The position numbers were made by a program, and so were the translations under genes. The notes beneath the pieces are model-generated. The model made no database searches. It was not told where the DNA came from and worked only from the letters and a program-made list of their open reading frames with translations. This document shows positions 4,906 through 55,510 of a stretch of 57,815 nucleotides of DNA, one piece after another. Within the stretch, counting starts at the first letter, position 1; each line of letters opens with the position of its first letter. Source of the DNA: an uncultured Bacteroidales bacterium (GTDB taxonomy: Bacteria > Bacteroidota > Bacteroidia > Bacteroidales > Paludibacteraceae); contig ONPG01000017.1 in NCBI GenBank assembly GCA_900319645.1, positions 1 through 57,815 of the forward strand, given 5' to 3'.

Positions 4906-7900
4906 TATTTCACTCTCGCTCCCTGTACATTGTACATTGTTCCTTTGTACATGATATAGAGCTGACCGTTGCGGAGAATCTTGGTAGTCTGTACTTCGTT
5001 CGTTTGTACATTCTCAACCGCGGTCGGATCACTACCATTTTCGTGAACGGCAACCGTAAAGTCTTTATTCTCAGCAGCCGTTACTACGAGACCGTCCGAA
5101 GTCGTTGTAACCACTAATCCTGTACCTTTACCGAGATTGGATAATGGATAGAAATCACTGTTCTCAGCCTTGAATACGTAAAAGGCTCCATCTTCTGTTT
5201 CGGTTACCACAGGATCATCAAATTCACTTGCCTGATAAATATCGGCAAGAATCAGTGTGTACGGACCCCAAGCGTTTCTAAGGACGTTACCATTGATGCC
5301 CCAAGATCCGTCACCTTCTGCAGGTACCTCTATCTTATCACCTACTTTGATCACATCCCCCACTTTGAGCGCTGTCCAAGTCGTCGGTGTCGAACCGCCG
5401 CCGGGCTCTTCACTGTCACCCTCAAAGTAGAATACGATGCTTTTCACTCCCGCAGCACCGCCGAATGAAGAAGTTTCTGTCAGCAGGTCAACCGTCGAGG
5501 CATTGCCTGTCCAGATGGCTTTCATGCCATCAATGTTCCATCCACTGCCGAGATATGCCACATACCAACCAGTAGAGCCGTTGAGCGTCATCTCAATCTT
5601 TGTGAAGTTCTTGCCGAGGGAGTTGCTGAAGGTATGGCCGCCGGTTGCGTTCACATAGAAATAGATGCCATTCTGGCTTTCATCTCCGTAATCGAGCCAA
5701 TAGGCATAATTATTGCTGGCATTAGCACCCAGCGTGACGCCCTCCTGCGAATAGGAACTGCCACTAACAACAAGGTTACTGATGTTGCTGCTGTTCCACG
5801 TTACGGTGGTTGCCGGAGCGGGAGCTGCCTTCTCGGCAATTGTAGCCTCGATGGTTACATTAGCTGCCGGCATCGTGAAGCTATATGCACCTGTCCCGGG
5901 ATCGAGCGTTGCGTCGATTTCATAAATACTACCCAACTGATCTTCTACAACCACATAGTAAGCCGAGAACGCCGTGATCTCGTATTCCTCATCCGGAGTA
6001 ACGGTAATGGTTGCGCCTTCTACAGCAGAAGTTGCACTCAGTGTTACTTTATCGGCATTGACTGTGCCGTCTTCCAGCGCTACGGTATAAGTCGGAGTCG
6101 GAGCGGGTTCGCCGCCTATAGCCTCAATGAGAGAAGCATAATCAGACCAAGCTGTTTTGTAGGCCTCTACCGATGCAGCCGGCACGTAAATCGCCGTGAG
6201 ATTGTTATCATTTTCGAATATAGCGTTACCAATAGTAGGAGGAGTCACCGCCTCGCAAGTAAAAGTAGTCAAACTCGTACAATTACGGAAAGCTCGCACT
6301 TTAATATTTGTGACGCTGGCTGGAACCGTTATAGTGCTCAAACTTCTACATTCATTGAAAGCACTTATTCCAATTATTTCGAGGTTATTTCCCAATTCCA
6401 CAGTGGTCATCAGAGAGTCAAAGAAGAAAGTGCCCCAACCAAGTTCGGTAACCGCGTCACTGACAATAAGGTGCTTAATATCAGTTTTGCTAGCATAAGC
6501 ATTATCGCCTGTATTGCTATTAACCGTCAGGGTCTTGGTGGCATCATCCCAGGTATCGCCATCACGAACCCAATCCGGAGTTGCCGGAGCGGGTTCGGAA
6601 GCTTCGGTACCGATAAGGCGTAACTCGCAAAGTTGCATTACACCAGCGCCCTGATTTGCAAACACTTCAAAGCGGAAATATTGGTACGGACCCGATTGAT
6701 CCACAAAGAACTTGTAGTCTTTGAAACTTTGATTTTTCATAGTGACATCATTGGTCACAGTAGCGATCGTGGTCCATGCGTCACCGGCATTGAGGAGCCA
6801 GTTTTTCGGGTTTCGTCCGTGCTCACTGCCAGTGTCATTACCGGTAGTCAGAATGTAACCGGTTAAATTAAGGGCTGCATCTGCCTCGAAATCTATCCAC
6901 CAGCAAGCATCACCGGACTCGCCCGTCGGAACGCTCTTATGACCATCGTTGGCACACCATTTTGTCCAATTCGAGCTAATAAACTTGTTATCTACCAGAT
7001 TGGCATGACCTTCATTGGCAAATCCGCCTGAACCGGCCGTTGCCGTGAAGTTTGCGAAAATGTCTCCCTCCGGAACCGGCTTTAAAGCAATCGTAGCCTC
7101 GATGGTTACGGCATAGGCAGGCATCGTGAAGCTATATGCACCTGTCCCGGGATCGAGCGTTGCGTCGATTTCATATATACTACCCAACTGATCTTCTACA
7201 ACCACATAGTAAGCCGAGAAATCCGTGATCTCGTATTCCTCATTCGGAGTAACGGTAACGGTTGCGCCTTCTACAGCAGAAGTTGCGCTCAGCGTTACTT
7301 TATCGGCATTGGCTGTGCCTGCTTTCAGCGCTACGGTATAAGTCGGAGCGGGGTTCGATACGGTAACAACGCAAGTAGCGGACTTATTGCCGTCGACAGT
7401 GGAGACGGTAATATTAGCTGTTCCCGGGCCTACGGCTGTTACAACGCCGTTATTAACGGTAGCAACGTTGCTATTGCTTGAAGTCCACATCACGTCCTTG
7501 TTTGTAGCATTGCTGGGAAGGACGGTTGGTATGAGTGTCAGAGTCGCGCCACCAACGGTCATCTCTGCCGCGCTCTTATTGAGCGTTACGCCGGTTACAG
7601 CCGTAGTCGCTTCTTCACTGTCACCCTCAAAGTAGAACACGATGCTTTTCACGTACTCACCATTGAAATTAGAAGCTTCTTTCAGCAGGTCAACCGTCGA
7701 GGCATTGCCCGTCCACGTAATGGTAACGGGGCTATCCCAATCAGAAATCCAAGGAAATGACCAACCACTGCCGAGATTTGCATAATCCCATCCGCCGGGA
7801 CGATTGGCGAGCATCTCAATCTTTGTGAAGTTCTTGCCGAGGGTGTTGCTGAAGGTAAAGCCGCCGGTTGCGTTCGCATTGAAACCGATGCCAGTCATGC

Positions 7901-51403: not shown

Positions 51404-51442
51404 CAACTGAAACTGACAACTGAAAAACAATCGAAAATCTCG

Positions 51443-51471
51443 AAATACACGGTGAAAGCCGTGTATTTTTT
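51443..51471 (+). terminator. Terminator of the SLC13-type gene
   Basis: AAATACACGG (51443-51452) pairs with CCGTGTATTT (51459-51468), 6-nt loop, T-run to 51471. Confidence 0.85.
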
Positions 51472-51499
51472 GTGTCTGCCAATAATCATGCTATTTTTG
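51469..51499 (+). promoter_or_regulatory. Promoter of the VapE cassette
   Basis: TTTG (51469-51472), 19 nt, TATTTTTG (51492-51499). It overlaps the preceding terminator. Just after it (about 51506-51530) TTTGGG and CCCAAA form an inverted repeat that could be an operator or leader hairpin. Confidence 0.65.
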
Positions 51500-51539
51500 T
51501 GTCCGTTTTGGGAAATTTTCCCCCAAAGCGAACGCAACT

Positions 51540-51803
51540 ATGACACAAACAGACAAAGACGACAGAGCCAAACGACTGGCTCATCGAAACACACTCATCC
51601 GGGAGATCTTTCACCAACTGACCACCGCTGAGAAAATGACCTACACCGATGCCTATATCTTTTTAGGCAGGTTTTTCGGTATCAATGACCGGCAAATCCG
51701 GAAAATTCTCCTGCAAAAATCAAAAGTGGCACTGAGTGCAGACAACGTAACGAAATTATCTGTAATTTTGCAGCGTATTTCAACAAAAATACCCGAAGTA
51801 TGA
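51540..51803 (+). CDS. Small helical protein, upstream partner of the VapE-like ATPase
   Basis: An 87-aa basic, mostly helical protein. Residues 40-60 (DAYIFLGRFFGINDRQIRKI) look like a helix-turn-helix of the kind that recognises DNA, with FGINDRQIRKILLQK as the possible recognition part. No family was recognised. Its stop overlaps the ATPase gene start by 4 nt (ATGA), so the two are translated together. It may be a specificity or replication-initiation subunit, or a repressor; that is inference. Confidence 0.7.
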   Translation: MTQTDKDDRAKRLAHRNTLIREIFHQLTTAEKMTYTDAYIFLGRFFGINDRQIRKILLQKSKVALSADNVTKLSVILQRISTKIPEV

Positions 51804-53056
51804 CTATGCAAAAGAAAAACAGACAAGAAACCGTGTGCGATTACATCTACAACGGCTATGTCCAATACGGGCGGCTCAGGCATGATGTAATCTCCAACAA
51901 AGTGCAAATCAAGGATCACCGGCTGGACACGGTGACGGCAATGCTTGATCCGCATAATTTCTATTGGCGGGACATCACTACGAACGATATCAATGATATC
52001 GTCTGCGACTGTTCCTTCGAGAGCGGCCTGCAGGTCTCTGCACGCGAGGTAATGGCGGTACTGCAGTCCCACCGCATTCCCGATGTCCATCCCCTACGCG
52101 ACTACGTGATGCAATGCCGGCCCTACACTTCCGACCAACCCGACTGGATTCAGTACCTCGCGGACCAGGTCAAGGTCAATGGCGGCGAAGAGAAGCAGAA
52201 GCTATGGCACTGTTGTTTCCGCAAGTGGTTTGTGGCAATGGTGGCGAGTTGGCTGGAGGACGAGGTCGTCAACCAGCAGGTGCTCGTGCTCATCGGCAAA
52301 CAGGGAACTTTCAAAACTACATGGCTCGAACACCTCCTTCCGCCCGAACTCCGGGCGTACGGGTGCAAGATGGCGAATAGCGCACAGCTCAACAAGGACG
52401 AGCGACTTCGCATCGCAGAGTATGGACTCATTGCGCTCGACGAGATTGACGCTATGTCCCCCAAAGAACTCAACGTGATGAAATCCGTCATCACCGCTTC
52501 TGATATCTCCGAGCGAGCGGCATACGGCTACACCAAAGAAAGGCGAATTCGCCTCGCCTCTTTCTGCGCCAGCGGCAACAAGCAGGAGTTTCTCACCGAC
52601 ATCACCGGAAACAGACGATGGCTGCCCTTCCATACCCTTTCTATCCAGAACCCCTTCTGCACCACACTGCCATACGAACAACTCTATGCACAAGCCAAAT
52701 GGTTGATTGATAACGGATTCCAGTATTGGTTCGATATGGACGACATTGACACTATCGAGCAACATAACGACGCTTTCCGGGCCCAGGAGAACGAGGAACA
52801 GCTCCTCGCCGTCTATTTCGACATTCCCGCCGAAGGACAGGGACAATTCATGACCACCGCCGAGATCTCCGACAAACTTGTCCTGCGCGGCAGCATCAAA
52901 AAACCGATGACTATCACCCGGCTTAGTATGATCCTCAAGAAAGCCGGATACAAAGACGTGCGAAAAGGTGCCAACAGAGTGCGCGGATGGCTTGTTTATG
53001 AGCGGACTATGGACGAAGTGAATGTCAACCGGCATATCCATGACATAGACCAATAG
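51800..53056 (+). CDS. VapE-like (virulence-associated E) P-loop ATPase
   Basis: A 418-aa protein. Walker A is GKQGTFKTTWLEHLLP (about 165-180), Walker B is LIALDEIDAM (about 210-219), followed by KSVITASDISERAAYGYTKE and ITGNRRWLPF, the VapE/VirE helicase-core signature (superfamily 3-like). Residues 1-130 are a short N-terminal region without the primase domain often fused to it. The C-terminal 110 residues look like a winged-helix DNA-binding segment (SMILKKAGYKDVRKGANRVR). VapE proteins are found in prophages, satellites and mobile elements, where they act in replication or phage interference. Next to it are a 9-bp repeat array and small genes. Confidence 0.85.
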   Translation: MTMQKKNRQETVCDYIYNGYVQYGRLRHDVISNKVQIKDHRLDTVTAMLDPHNFYWRDITTNDINDIVCDCSFESGLQVSAREVMAVLQSHRIPDVHPLRDYVMQCRPYTSDQPDWIQYLADQVKVNGGEEKQKLWHCCFRKWFVAMVASWLEDEVVNQQVLVLIGKQGTFKTTWLEHLLPPELRAYGCKMANSAQLNKDERLRIAEYGLIALDEIDAMSPKELNVMKSVITASDISERAAYGYTKERRIRLASFCASGNKQEFLTDITGNRRWLPFHTLSIQNPFCTTLPYEQLYAQAKWLIDNGFQYWFDMDDIDTIEQHNDAFRAQENEEQLLAVYFDIPAEGQGQFMTTAEISDKLVLRGSIKKPMTITRLSMILKKAGYKDVRKGANRVRGWLVYERTMDEVNVNRHIHDIDQ

Positions 53057-53059
53057 ACC

Positions 53060-53153
53060 GGGTGACCAACCTATTTATTAAATCTCACACACGTACGTAT
53101 ATGTGTGTATGTATTTTAAAAAAAACCTGGTCACCTGGTCACCTGGTCACCCA
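53060..53153. repeat. Iteron-like array downstream of the VapE gene
   Basis: CCTGGTCAC repeats three times (53127-53153) and an inverted copy (GGGTGACCA) lies at 53060-53068. Between them is an AT-rich stretch with an alternating CACACA/TGTGTG palindrome (about 53089-53114). Direct repeats, an inverted copy and AT-rich DNA are the ingredients of a small replication origin. Confidence 0.6.
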
Positions 53154-53243
53154 TTTCCTCATCCTTTGTCTTTCACGATACCACATCGTTACCACTACGC
53201 AGGGTCGTAGCACGATTATTAACTTTTTCAAATTCTAATCATT

Positions 53244-53516
53244 ATGAGAGTAGAACTCATTTTACCGGTTGCCAAATTGCATGGCAAACTCAATGGCAAA
53301 GCGCCATTCTATTTCAAAACAGTCAACGGAAGGACCTTTGTTCAGCGGTGTCCTAACCGCTCTTTACAGCCTCCCACGCCGGCGCAGACTGCTGCCAAAG
53401 AGCGCTTTGCTACGATTGCACGGATGGTTCGGGCAATGTATCTGGCCGGCAGCAAACTCACACGCAAGCAGTTATGGGAAAAAGCAGCGGAGGTGTATGA
53501 TGCAGCGCATAAATAA
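53244..53516 (+). CDS. Small protein, paralogue A of the cassette
   Basis: A 90-aa basic protein: APFYFKTVNGRTFVQRCPNR, then PPTPAQTAAKERFATIARMV. This beta-hairpin plus PAQ..AK.RF helix pattern recurs in the proteins at 53956 and, more loosely, at 54608, and recalls the N-terminal part of DUF6266-type Bacteroidota proteins (a weak resemblance by eye). Function unknown. It overlaps the next gene by 17 nt. A CTACG/CGTAG hairpin lies in its leader (about 53195-53211). Confidence 0.7.
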   Translation: MRVELILPVAKLHGKLNGKAPFYFKTVNGRTFVQRCPNRSLQPPTPAQTAAKERFATIARMVRAMYLAGSKLTRKQLWEKAAEVYDAAHK

Positions 53517-53724
53517 AGAGGAGCTTCTGGGGAGGTTGGAGAGCGCTATCAGAGCTAAGATCGGTATGAAAGGACTAAACACCCTCCTCTACGGATGGAA
53601 GAAATACCGCCGGTTTGGAAAACGCTATCTGGACGCTCTGAAGCACCGCGAATGGCTCTACATCACCGAAGTAATGGATCTGAGCGCGTACGCCGGATAC
53701 GACTTGACTCTCACCTCGGAATAA
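53500..53724 (+). CDS. 74-aa basic protein overlapping paralogue A
   Basis: MQRINKEELLGRLESAIRAK, then IGMKGLNTLLYGWKKYRRFG and a short C-terminal part ending DLTLTSE. Strongly basic and helical. The start overlaps the upstream gene by 17 nt, a sign of coupled translation. The same frame is open further upstream, but there it only shadows paralogue A. No family recognised; nucleic-acid binding is plausible from charge. Confidence 0.6.
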   Translation: MQRINKEELLGRLESAIRAKIGMKGLNTLLYGWKKYRRFGKRYLDALKHREWLYITEVMDLSAYAGYDLTLTSE

Positions 53725-53778
53725 TCCCTCCGGTTCTTAACAAGAAAGTGAATCTGCTCACCTTTCAGGAACCTGATC

Positions 53779-53810
53779 TTTGATTATCTCGCAAAAAAGC
53801 AGTACCTTTG
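53779..53810 (+). promoter_or_regulatory. Promoter within the cassette
   Basis: TTTG (53779-53782), 20 nt, TACCTTTG (53803-53810). It starts transcription almost exactly at the structured leader 53813-53906. Confidence 0.8.
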
Positions 53811-53812
53811 CA

Positions 53813-53906
53813 CTGTCTTTCCATCAGATAGGATAATGAGTCCAAGGAGCGTCTATCTTCTTATCCTCAGTTCCAAGGACTCAAAAAGGGATAGATGGAA
53901 AGACAG
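53813..53906 (+). promoter_or_regulatory. Structured leader closed by a 13-bp perfect stem
   Basis: CTGTCTTTCCATC (53813-53825) is perfectly complementary to GATGGAAAGACAG (53894-53906). Inside, GAGTCC (53838-53843) can pair with GGACTC (53877-53882), while GGATAA (53831-53836) can instead pair with TTATCC (53861-53866). These inner stems interleave, so two alternative folds are possible. It begins 3 nt after the -7 box and ends 49 nt before the start codon at 53956. It could be a cis-regulator or a stable RNA; no known class recognised. Confidence 0.6.
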
Positions 53907-53955
53907 CCGGCTTAACAATCAAACGTGTTTAACTTTTTCTCACAAAACCAAATCA

Positions 53956-54294
53956 ATGGCAAAAATCAAACCCATGGCGCTCATTGAGAGCATGAGTAAA
54001 AAAGTGTGCATGCACAGCGATGTGTATTTCCGCACCAACAAACAGACCGGTGTGACTTATACCGGCAAAGTGTGCAACCCAAGCACCAAAGCCGATTCTG
54101 CCGATCAGGTGAAAGCTAAAAACCGGTTCAGAAAAGTGGTGGCGGCTATCCGGACCATCCTCACCGATCCGACTGAGAAAGCCAAACTGCAAGCCGAGTA
54201 TAAGGCCCAGACCAAGATCGGATCTTTGTTCGGCTACGCGATGCACAAACTGAACGGCGATTATGACGAAGACGGTGAAAAGATTGGAGGCTAA
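53956..54294 (+). CDS. Small protein, paralogue B of the cassette
   Basis: The ATG at 53956 gives a 112-aa protein: MAKIKPMALIESMSKKVCMH, VYFRTNKQTGVTYTGKVCNP, ADQVKAKNRFRKVVAAIRTI and a C-terminal acidic tail. Its hairpin-then-AK.RF helix pattern matches paralogue A. Function unknown. It is preceded by its own promoter and the structured leader, and followed after 3 nt by a small lipoprotein gene. The frame is open to 53836 but that region is the leader. Confidence 0.75.
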   Translation: MAKIKPMALIESMSKKVCMHSDVYFRTNKQTGVTYTGKVCNPSTKADSADQVKAKNRFRKVVAAIRTILTDPTEKAKLQAEYKAQTKIGSLFGYAMHKLNGDYDEDGEKIGG

Positions 54295-54297
54295 GCG

Positions 54298-54480
54298 ATG
54301 AAAAACAACCATTTCGGATGTCTGGGCTGGGTCGTAATCGTGATAGTGGGTGGGGTAGCCCTGACCGGCTGCAATGTCACCCGACGTATCACCACCGAAT
54401 CCGCCTTCCTCCAACGCGGTGACACCGCCGTCGTCATCCAATCCAAGACCGTTGAGACCTACGACGCCTCCAGGAAATGA
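54298..54480 (+). CDS. 60-aa lipoprotein
   Basis: MKNNHFGCLGWVVIVIVGGV then ALTGCNVTRRITTESAF: one membrane segment and a lipobox (ALTGC, Cys at residue 25), followed by a 35-residue polar tail (RGDTAVVIQSKTVETYDASR). Small lipoproteins of this look are common beside phage-like genes in Bacteroidales, but the function is unknown. It starts 3 nt after paralogue B and is probably cotranscribed with it. Confidence 0.7.
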   Translation: MKNNHFGCLGWVVIVIVGGVALTGCNVTRRITTESAFLQRGDTAVVIQSKTVETYDASRK

Positions 54481-54499
54481 ATGACCTAAAGACGAAAAA

Positions 54500-54607
54500 C
54501 AATTATCAATTATCAAAATTTTCGCTTGTCGAAAATAATCGTTCGAGCGAAGCGAGATAAGAACTATCAATTATCAATTATTAATTATTAACTATTAACT
54601 ATTAACT
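54500..54607. repeat. TATCAATTA/ATTAACT simple repeats and dispersed palindrome copy 3
   Basis: Several TATCAATTA and ATTAACT units flank an inverted copy (54531-54561) of the element at 8613-8642 and 24836-24863, including GTTCGAGCGAAGCGAGATAA. The same AT repeats precede the efflux genes. Confidence 0.65.
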
Positions 54608-54994
54608 ATGGCAAAATTTCAACCCTCAGCGGGTATCGACCACATCAGCGGTGTGTTGAGCCCGAAGAAAGGCGATCCTTGCGCCCAGCGCCTGACCGCC
54701 AAGCACGTAACCGTCAGCGCGGACTGCAACCGCCTGTATCTGGCTCCGAAGCCCAAACGCTCCACCGCGATCACTCCGGCTGAGCAGATCATCCAGGGCA
54801 AGTTCTCCACCGTCACCGCCGCCGTGCTGGTGCGCAAGCAGGATCTCAGCCACCTGACCTCCGACCAGGCACGCTGGGCACTCGCCCGCAAAGCCGGCGA
54901 CCCGCACCGCACCTTCCGCGGATGGCTCTTCGCCAAAGGCTGGGAGAACTACGACGAGGAGACGGGCACCGTCATCTGGCCGGATCAACTTTAA
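54608..54994 (+). CDS. Small protein, divergent paralogue C of the cassette
   Basis: A 128-aa protein: MAKFQPSAGIDHISGVLSPK, AEQIIQGKFSTVTAAVLVRK, a helical middle and RTFRGWLFAKGWENYDEETG. It shares the MAK start and the P-x-EQ...KF helix with paralogues A and B, though more weakly. The DNA is richer in G+C than its neighbours. Function unknown. It follows an AT-rich simple repeat and precedes the palindrome-rich region. Confidence 0.7.
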   Translation: MAKFQPSAGIDHISGVLSPKKGDPCAQRLTAKHVTVSADCNRLYLAPKPKRSTAITPAEQIIQGKFSTVTAAVLVRKQDLSHLTSDQARWALARKAGDPHRTFRGWLFAKGWENYDEETGTVIWPDQL

Positions 54995-55011: not shown

Positions 55012-55510
55012 CCCGGCCCTCCCCTCAAGGGGGGAGTGCGGGAGGATTACGTCCCTGACGCGGAGCATAAGCTCCGCTTTTTCTTCTTCCATTCCGCGGG
55101 ATGCCATCCCGCCCTTTTCTTCGTCCATGCCCTTTTCTTCGTCCATTTCGTCGGTTCAAAATAATGGGGTCCCCGAGGATTTGTAATCCTTGGGGAGAGC
55201 GGAGGCAGGAGTTGCTTTGTCGATTTAGCAGAGCGGTATCGACCGTCGCAATCTCCTTGCCGAACGCGAGGACATCGGCTCTGCCGACATCTGTCCACAG
55301 TGTCCTGTGTCCGGCACCTCCGCTGCCGAATAATCGCCCACGGAGTTCTGTATTCGCGAGTTTCGCGAGCGGGAGGATTACGTCCCTGACGCGGAGCATA
55401 AGCTCCGCTTTTTCTTCCGTTACATCGGATATCATCCGACTCGACGAGGTCGGGCTTTGCTGGGGTTCACAAGTTCCGCATTGTTGCACAATACCGTAGC
55501 CCTTCCAATC
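55012..55510. repeat. Palindrome-rich non-coding region with duplicated terminators
   Basis: No gene seen. An exact 49-bp direct repeat (55038-55086 and 55369-55417) contains a terminator (GCGGAGC, 4-nt loop, GCTCCGC, T-run) in each copy. Other hairpins: GCGGGATgccATCCCGC (55096-55112), an 11-bp stem CCCCGAGGATT with AATCCTTGGGG (55171-55195), a CCC/GGG element (55012-55042), and GGACA- and CGCGA-type palindromes to 55370. The mosaic recalls REP or RAYT-associated palindromes. Confidence 0.75.

Follow-up and report, generated by a model that had tools for sequence, protein, structure and literature searches.

A VapE-led cassette in a Bacteroidales contig

The window analysed here is a whole contig of 57,815 bp (ONPG01000017.1; C8 in our numbering) from a 2.64-Mb, 84% complete assembly of an uncultured Bacteroidales bacterium of the Paludibacteraceae (GCA_900319645.1). 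Before the contig ends at 57815, positions 51540-54994 hold a single operon-like cassette in which a leader protein, a VapE-type ATPase, a repeat array and a set of small genes lie in one direction. The seven open reading frames (ORFs) and the overlap of vapE with the leader frame are as described in an earlier reading made from the letters alone (the sequence-only reading). The argument below turns on three features:

51800..53056 (+): VapE, 418 aa, starting with a 4-nt overlap on the leader ORF
52910..52981 (+): VapE aa 371-394, the proposed origin-recognition element, which covaries with the iterons and overlaps a sub-threshold DUF3874 match
53056..53151 (no strand): proposed replication origin directly 3' of vapE, consisting of a left iteron arm (53056-53068), an AT-rich spacer with an inner stem (53087-53108) and right iterons (53126-53151, GGTCACCT units)

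VapE and its relatives

VapE matches PF05272 (E 6.9e-29), which bears out the ATPase type first assigned to it, and has a relative in the PDB (7pds, E 4.4e-10). We take aa 166 and aa 210 to mark its Walker A and Walker B motifs. The DUF3874 match, at aa 330-387, lies below threshold (E 6e-5). VapE also has helicase-type relatives and matches phage families in PHROGs, and those labelled 'DNA primase' align to it with their C-terminal halves only. Family and motifs suggest that VapE is an AAA+ helicase acting as a replication initiator. In the available part of PMC5862659, VirE/VapE and DUF3987 ATPases are predicted to be mobile-element helicases; the literature we searched contained no paper on the function of the cassette and did not mention DUF3874 or DUF6266.

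We collected 40 VapE loci from genome contigs. The closest relatives come from Paludibacteraceae/Bacteroidales assemblies, and 11 of the 37 genomes in the genus have VapE (one as weak fragments only), as do 3 of 24 other genomes. The window genome has one full VapE, plus a second VapE start fragment at the edge of contig C39. At least three small genes follow VapE in kept order at 11 of the 40 loci; at 10 of the remaining 29, a contig edge falls inside VapE or within ~110 bp after it, which we take to reflect assembly breaks at repeats. Genome UBA4333 carries two copies (L005 and L006) that are ~94% identical across 2.6 kb. By eye, their similarity sets in at the promoter -7 box and fades out at a terminator-like hairpin, and upstream sequence and flanks differ between the copies.

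Iterated inverted repeats lie directly behind VapE

The direct repeat of the window is ACCTGGTC, present 3.4 times with a period of 8 at 53125-53151, and a single inverted repeat unit lies at 53061-53067. The array and its inverted unit had thus been recognised correctly in the sequence-only reading, but with a period of 9; its label 'iteron-like' holds. Two inverted short-repeat sets lie on either side of AT-rich DNA behind VapE.

The motif GGTSACC shows no enrichment in the window (8 occurrences versus 5.2 expected) and was rejected as a common unit, as other loci use different ones; we therefore compared folds instead. The outer-arm units are GGTGACC in the window, GAACACC in L005 and L020, GGCTGAC in L003 and L006, ATGACAG in L007 and L010, and GCGGAC in L008, L011 and L012. 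The fold behind VapE in the window has a z score of -5.6, matched by none of 200 shuffles. Across 31 loci (60 shuffles each; L004 cut short), 20 reach a z of -3 or lower; of the 18 closest loci, the window among them, 16 do so. An inverted-arm score of at least 15 is reached at 14 of 23 VapE loci against 2 of 162 control positions, the ends of other genes in these loci; the window itself scores a modest 10, with a median of 7 and a maximum of 29 among the control gene ends. The hairpin also covaries: in an alignment of 12 loci, from which L018 (misaligned) and L021 (cut) were omitted, 15 of 21 pairs changed on both sides, giving a score of 0.481 versus 0.205 for shuffled and at most 0.098 for slid alignments. 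Loci of Pontibacter and Rufibacter show short repeats by eye, yet were not counted because their fold statistic is flat.

A C-terminal segment of VapE tracks the repeat sequence

We compared VapE and repeat sequences over 16 loci by Mantel test, omitting L021 and L023, in which the VapE frame is interrupted. Distance in aa 371-394 correlates with repeat-word distance (r 0.54), and the correlation persists given the rest of VapE (partial r 0.52, p 2e-4). It holds with word lengths of 5-7 (r 0.50-0.58) and in a 13-locus subset (r 0.37-0.49). A scan along VapE peaks at aa 373-396 (r 0.56), and stretches ending before aa 373 never rise above 0.23.

Cassettes within one genome display the pattern directly. 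In L005 and L006 the VapE cores are 98.8% identical and the segments 46%, and no repeat word is in common; the same holds for L008 and L010, also from one genome, with 98.2% for the core and 35% for the segment. L007 and L010, from two assemblies, are the mirror case: the cores are 83% identical, the segments 100%, and the repeat words are mostly common (Jaccard 0.62). At the DNA level, only 7073-7310 of the L005/L006 alignment drops to 52-70% identity, the adjoining DNA being 93-97% identical and every other 60-column block at least 88%. This divergent tract of ~240 bp comprises the recognition segment and the origin; segment and iterons are traded between cassettes as one module of about that length.

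Remaining genes and borders of the cassette

The other features of the unit are listed below.

51442..51469 (+): terminator-like hairpin 3' of the CitMHS-type permease gene, left edge of the unit; pattern match only
51492..51499 (+): TATTTTTG, upstream of the leader gene, which we take to be a candidate Bacteroidetes -7-type box
51540..51803 (+): HTH87, the basic 87-aa leader protein (pI 10.2), a presumed regulator
53244..53516 (+): sp90, 90 aa, with an sp90a-type head and an sp90b-type tail
53500..53724 (+): bas74, a basic 74-aa protein
53803..53813 (+): TACCTTTGCAC, upstream of sp112, presumably an internal promoter-like box (candidate)
53813..53906 (+): candidate structured RNA in the 5' region of sp112, an outer 13-bp stem enclosing a double pseudoknot
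53956..54294 (+): sp112, 112 aa, with an alternative longer in-frame start at 53836
54298..54480 (+): lipoprotein, 60 aa
54608..54994 (+): sp128, 128 aa, a mosaic gene
55060..55077 (+): terminator-like hairpin, right edge of the unit; pattern match only

The permease gene is the left neighbour, and two right-hand neighbour genes tested had no family match. All cassette proteins except VapE are basic (pI 9.3-10.6). Nonsynonymous change (pN) is well below synonymous change (pS) for the six genes tested, vapE and the five behind it, or for their relatives. To the right of the cassette, a 49-bp sequence that includes a terminator-like hairpin is repeated without mismatch in direct orientation (55038-55086 and 55369-55417), the starts lying 331 bp apart.

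The leader protein has no profile match in Pfam, PHROGs or NCBIfam, which leaves the helix-turn-helix likeness first noted for it without profile support. Relatives are present in L013 and L024 and, by eye, in L005 and L003, 3' of a -1 frameshift site. The window leader is an in-frame form and requires no shift. At nine of 24 loci (L003, L005, L007, L009, L010, L013, L021, L031 and L035), which include two dissimilar leader types, a leader frame of at least 45 aa requires a -1 shift at A_AAA_AAG or A_AAA_AAC, and these nine genes look like cases of programmed frameshifting.

The RNA candidate occurs in 12 distinct copies (for example L003:8479-8587, L005:8447-8556 and L018:8480-8591), 11 of them upstream of sp112 and one at L009, where sp112 is missing. 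Its predicted architecture is an outer stem with three short crossing helices, linked by ATAATG, GGGGCGT, CTCAGT and AAAAAGG. The three inner helices, which were drawn from the same sequences, have a covariation score of 0.530 versus 0.214 for shuffled and at most 0.172 for slid alignments. No Rfam family matched at E <= 1.

A family of small basic proteins

The 90-, 112- and 128-aa proteins are paralogous, as the sequence-only reading had proposed: hidden Markov models of their orthologs detect each other (best E 1e-10 to 0.07, with no shuffled decoy better than 0.9), and hhalign probabilities for the three pairs are 96.7, 91.6 and 83.0%. Sp90a, sp90b, sp112 and sp128 make up one family, in which sp128 and sp90a form the weakest link, undetected by hhalign (1.6%); bas74 and the lipoprotein fall outside it. 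The fused sp90 of the window, with its a-type head and b-type tail, also occurs in L009 and L011, and other loci carry two genes. Five other family loci in the genome, with a different head, match the C-terminal half of sp128 (54758-54985) at 79-82% nucleotide identity, and the sp128 head is common to two further loci.

Sp112 is predicted to fold into a β-hairpin and three helices (pLDDT 83, pTM 0.56), and this fold had no match at E <= 0.001 in the PDB or among viral models. Its relatives were not found in phage records, plasmids or IMG/VR. Bas74 has a predicted E-H-H-H-E-H fold, with no PDB fold match at E <= 0.001 and no known relative found; a relationship to DUF4248 was rejected, the score not exceeding column shuffles. 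A relative of the lipoprotein in L020 resembles 'smalltalk' N-terminally (E 2.9e-4), although its 20.6 bits fall short of the 24.7-bit cut-off, and the window lipoprotein has no smalltalk match. The sp proteins may perhaps bind DNA, because they are basic and occupy the place held by HU in a Bacteroides relative (L034).

The N-terminal ~65 residues of DUF6266 (PF19781) align with sp90b (hhalign 94%, score 44.6 versus at most 15.0 in 30 column shuffles). Sp112, sp128, sp90a and sp90 reach probabilities of only 2-13%, with scores above shuffles. Unlike DUF6266, the sp proteins lack the C-terminal two thirds of the 198-position domain, and none on its own matches DUF6266. Long proteins with a sub-threshold DUF6266 start exist in the same genus (L137:451-1737, in G032:C8, and a second copy in L141), and virome record MT836516 holds one relative.

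Within the genus, 36 of the 37 genomes contain the family by the sp112 model; the 24 genomes from outside it contain none. The sequence-only reading had raised the case of small genes unlinked from VapE. This applies in part: gene order is kept at the 11 loci described above, yet the window genome has 27-30 family matches for its one full VapE. In at least 36 of 57 cases, counted among the matches listed, DUF5675 has a family member no more than 3 kb away, where ~1% is expected. At some other family loci of the window genome the first gene is of the HNH_3 type or encodes a DUF3987 helicase, and one DUF3987 helicase gene with a family member close by is followed immediately by an inverted repeat, a single case. 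Inverted short repeats follow both the DUF3987 helicase gene at L118:5436-6869 (C17) and a gene without Pfam match at L112:10083-11148 (C20), each with sp-family genes nearby; these are possible further replicon types in the same genome. At L115 (C41), L082 (G017:C2) and L025, defence genes adjoin sp-family genes or VapE cassettes: PtuA/PtuB, an AriA-like ATPase, PglZ, and a MutH-type restriction enzyme with methylase.

Searches for signs of mobility

The assembly contains three tyrosine recombinases (PF00589), all on other contigs, none of which carries a family match. A known, full prophage around the cassette, which the sequence-only reading had envisaged as one outcome, was not found: no tyrosine recombinase lies on the contig and Terminase_6N is absent from the 84% complete assembly, capsid and portal genes not having been searched genome-wide. 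A recombinase sequence pattern matched none of the neighbouring ORFs and was given no weight. The cassette proteins had no Pfam or PHROGs match to packaging or capsid-redirection genes such as terS.

Six virome scaffolds with VapE (4.7-9.0 kb) were rejected as free elements, having no terminal repeats and other genes; they are probably pieces of bacterial chromosome. VapE patterns were absent from viral contigs. Circular cassette contigs were likewise rejected: nine whole contigs were tested, and none had terminal repeats. Eight relatives of the upstream permease locus lack the cassette and are too diverged for an empty-site comparison to give a border.

Comparison with known systems

According to the part of PMC6092414 available to us, phage-inducible chromosomal islands (PICIs) have an initiator with the origin directly 3', in which two iteron sets surround an AT-rich region. 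In the Staphylococcus aureus pathogenicity islands (SaPIs), Rep recognises its downstream origin via its C-terminal domain, and binding and unwinding have been shown for Cch2, a helicase of the staphylococcal cassette chromosome SCCmec related to SaPI Rep (both from the available part of PMC7581432). The cassette shares this layout in sequence, with an initiator helicase, a downstream origin and two iteron sets flanking AT-rich DNA; a C-terminal domain that reads the origin is suggested in it by covariation. Unlike these islands, its contig has no integrase, two of its copies lack flanking repeats, and no Pfam primase, terS or capsid-redirecting genes were found in it; it also has at least two copies in some genomes, a Bacteroidales host and unrelated cargo. 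As the integrase, attachment-site and packaging features tested are absent, we do not file it as a PICI.

Phage P4, with its alpha protein and ori/crr, offers a second likeness, in that its helicase-initiator also has iterons of its own; in L005 the GGTGAACA-type unit is presumably similar to the type I iteron of P4. The alpha protein, by contrast, fuses primase and helicase, and P4 has int, sid, psu and cos, none of which was found in the cassette.

The L034 cassette from Bacteroides (VapE-HU-smalltalk-amidase) also places VapE first and has a small basic protein and, by eye, a smalltalk-like peptide, all in one direction. In contrast to the window cassette, HU-HIG and Amidase_2 replace the sp proteins there (neither matched in the window cassette), and no clear hairpin follows VapE (z -1.1). 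DUF4248 was found in none of the 37 genomes from the genus and in 3 of the 24 other genomes. Other distant relatives include a long VapE with a BT4734-like_N domain (L028). PMC10434189, PMC6231650 and PMC7145576 offer, in their available parts, regulated-gene lists, a Porphyromonas DUF4248 gene and a RepA_N satellite origin, and were not used as evidence.

A candidate mini-replicon with an exchangeable origin-recognition module

We consider it probable that the cassette, a real and conserved operon, is an integrase-less, satellite-like, chromosome-embedded mini-replicon with an exchangeable origin-recognition module. VapE would be its origin-binding AAA+ helicase, and the C-terminal DUF3874-type domain would read the short repeats directly behind vapE, as the covariation suggests. 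VapE might then load at the repeats and unwind the AT-rich spacer, and the locus might be amplified in place or as an excised form. Exchange of ~240 bp would change origin specificity and leave the helicase core unchanged. The operon 3' of the origin would supply DUF6266-N-related basic proteins, the 74-aa protein and a smalltalk-like lipoprotein, and the whole would correspond in function to the rep-ori portion of a phage satellite of the PICI type. With no integrase or packaging genes, the cassette would be moved by other elements or be domesticated. Among the options of the sequence-only reading, a replicating element without transfer genes is well supported by sequence, and the degenerate satellite fits as a relationship by mechanism. 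More tentatively, the genus may harbour a class of integrase-less, multi-copy, satellite-like chromosomal replicons with swappable initiators (VapE, DUF3987, perhaps others), private iteron origins, shuffled DUF6266-related DNA-binding proteins restricted to the genus, control of the main gene by a new double-pseudoknot RNA and a 240-bp specificity trade that lets copies coexist.

Several observations weigh against the mini-replicon. The seven cassette proteins include no Pfam or NCBIfam primase, and no common flank word of 8-12 bp occurs in L005 or L006. Hairpins are weak in L016 and L017, z is above -3 in L025, L027, L030, L033, L034 and L036-L039, and the number of further pair types in the hairpin (22) shows no excess over shuffles (20.8). 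The rest of VapE also correlates with the repeat words to some extent (r 0.20, p 0.007, partial 0.10), and linkage may contribute to the segment correlation because the segment is adjacent to the origin. Specificity exchange is not a rule, since two of the four readable same-genome pairs carry the same segment: L013/L014 in G015, both truncated by contig ends, and L088/L089 in G034, in which both VapE copies are incomplete or interrupted. Finally, the loci come mostly from metagenome or draft assemblies.

Four other explanations were weighed. The cassette could be an anti-phage module, also suggested by the sequence-only reading, in which VapE replication or the small proteins act on incoming phages as a domesticated defence set. 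Some related cassettes and family genes do adjoin the PtuA/PtuB, AriA-like, PglZ and MutH-type genes named above, but such neighbours may just share a hot spot, none was detected at the window copy among the genes tested, and no PADLOC model matches VapE or sp112 at E <= 0.001. We consider this explanation unlikely. We judge it quite improbable that the structure behind VapE is instead an RNA element, a terminator or attenuator whose repeats merely form a strong stem. The RNA fold is very stable and its inner stem scores as terminator-like with a T-rich tail; however, the iterated units follow the VapE C-terminal segment, which a simple terminator would not need, and the layout equals that of PICI origins as given in the available part of PMC6092414.

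There is a similarly slim chance that covariation of segment and iterons reflects hitchhiking, adjacent DNA being exchanged together without specificity. In the window, ~75-170 bp separate the segment from the repeats, and a single exchange tract holds both in L005/L006. The borders of that tract, however, lie close to where the C-terminal domain starts and where the repeats end, the two repeat arms vary in concert, and L007 and L010 retain segment and unit despite differing cores. It is very improbable that the cassette is the decayed remnant of a prophage or classical integrative element whose integrase and structural genes have been lost: the phage-family matches of VapE, the smalltalk-like lipoprotein relative, and related cassettes with DUF5675 (one matching a PHROG) and a small membrane protein would fit it, but the tested genes are under purifying selection, order is kept at 11 loci, recombinases sit only on contigs without a family match, Terminase_6N is missing from the 84% complete genome, and no sp112 relative was found in phage, plasmid or IMG/VR records.

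Under the mini-replicon reading, the VapE/DUF3874 genes of Bacteroidales gain a testable function, with DUF3874 reading the origin and the origin itself located in the DNA 3' of the gene. The natural exchange of segment and iterons would provide a ready-made set for decoding protein-DNA specificity. If amplification proves true, these loci would change copy number in the cell, which would bear on metagenome coverage and on the biology of gut phage satellites.

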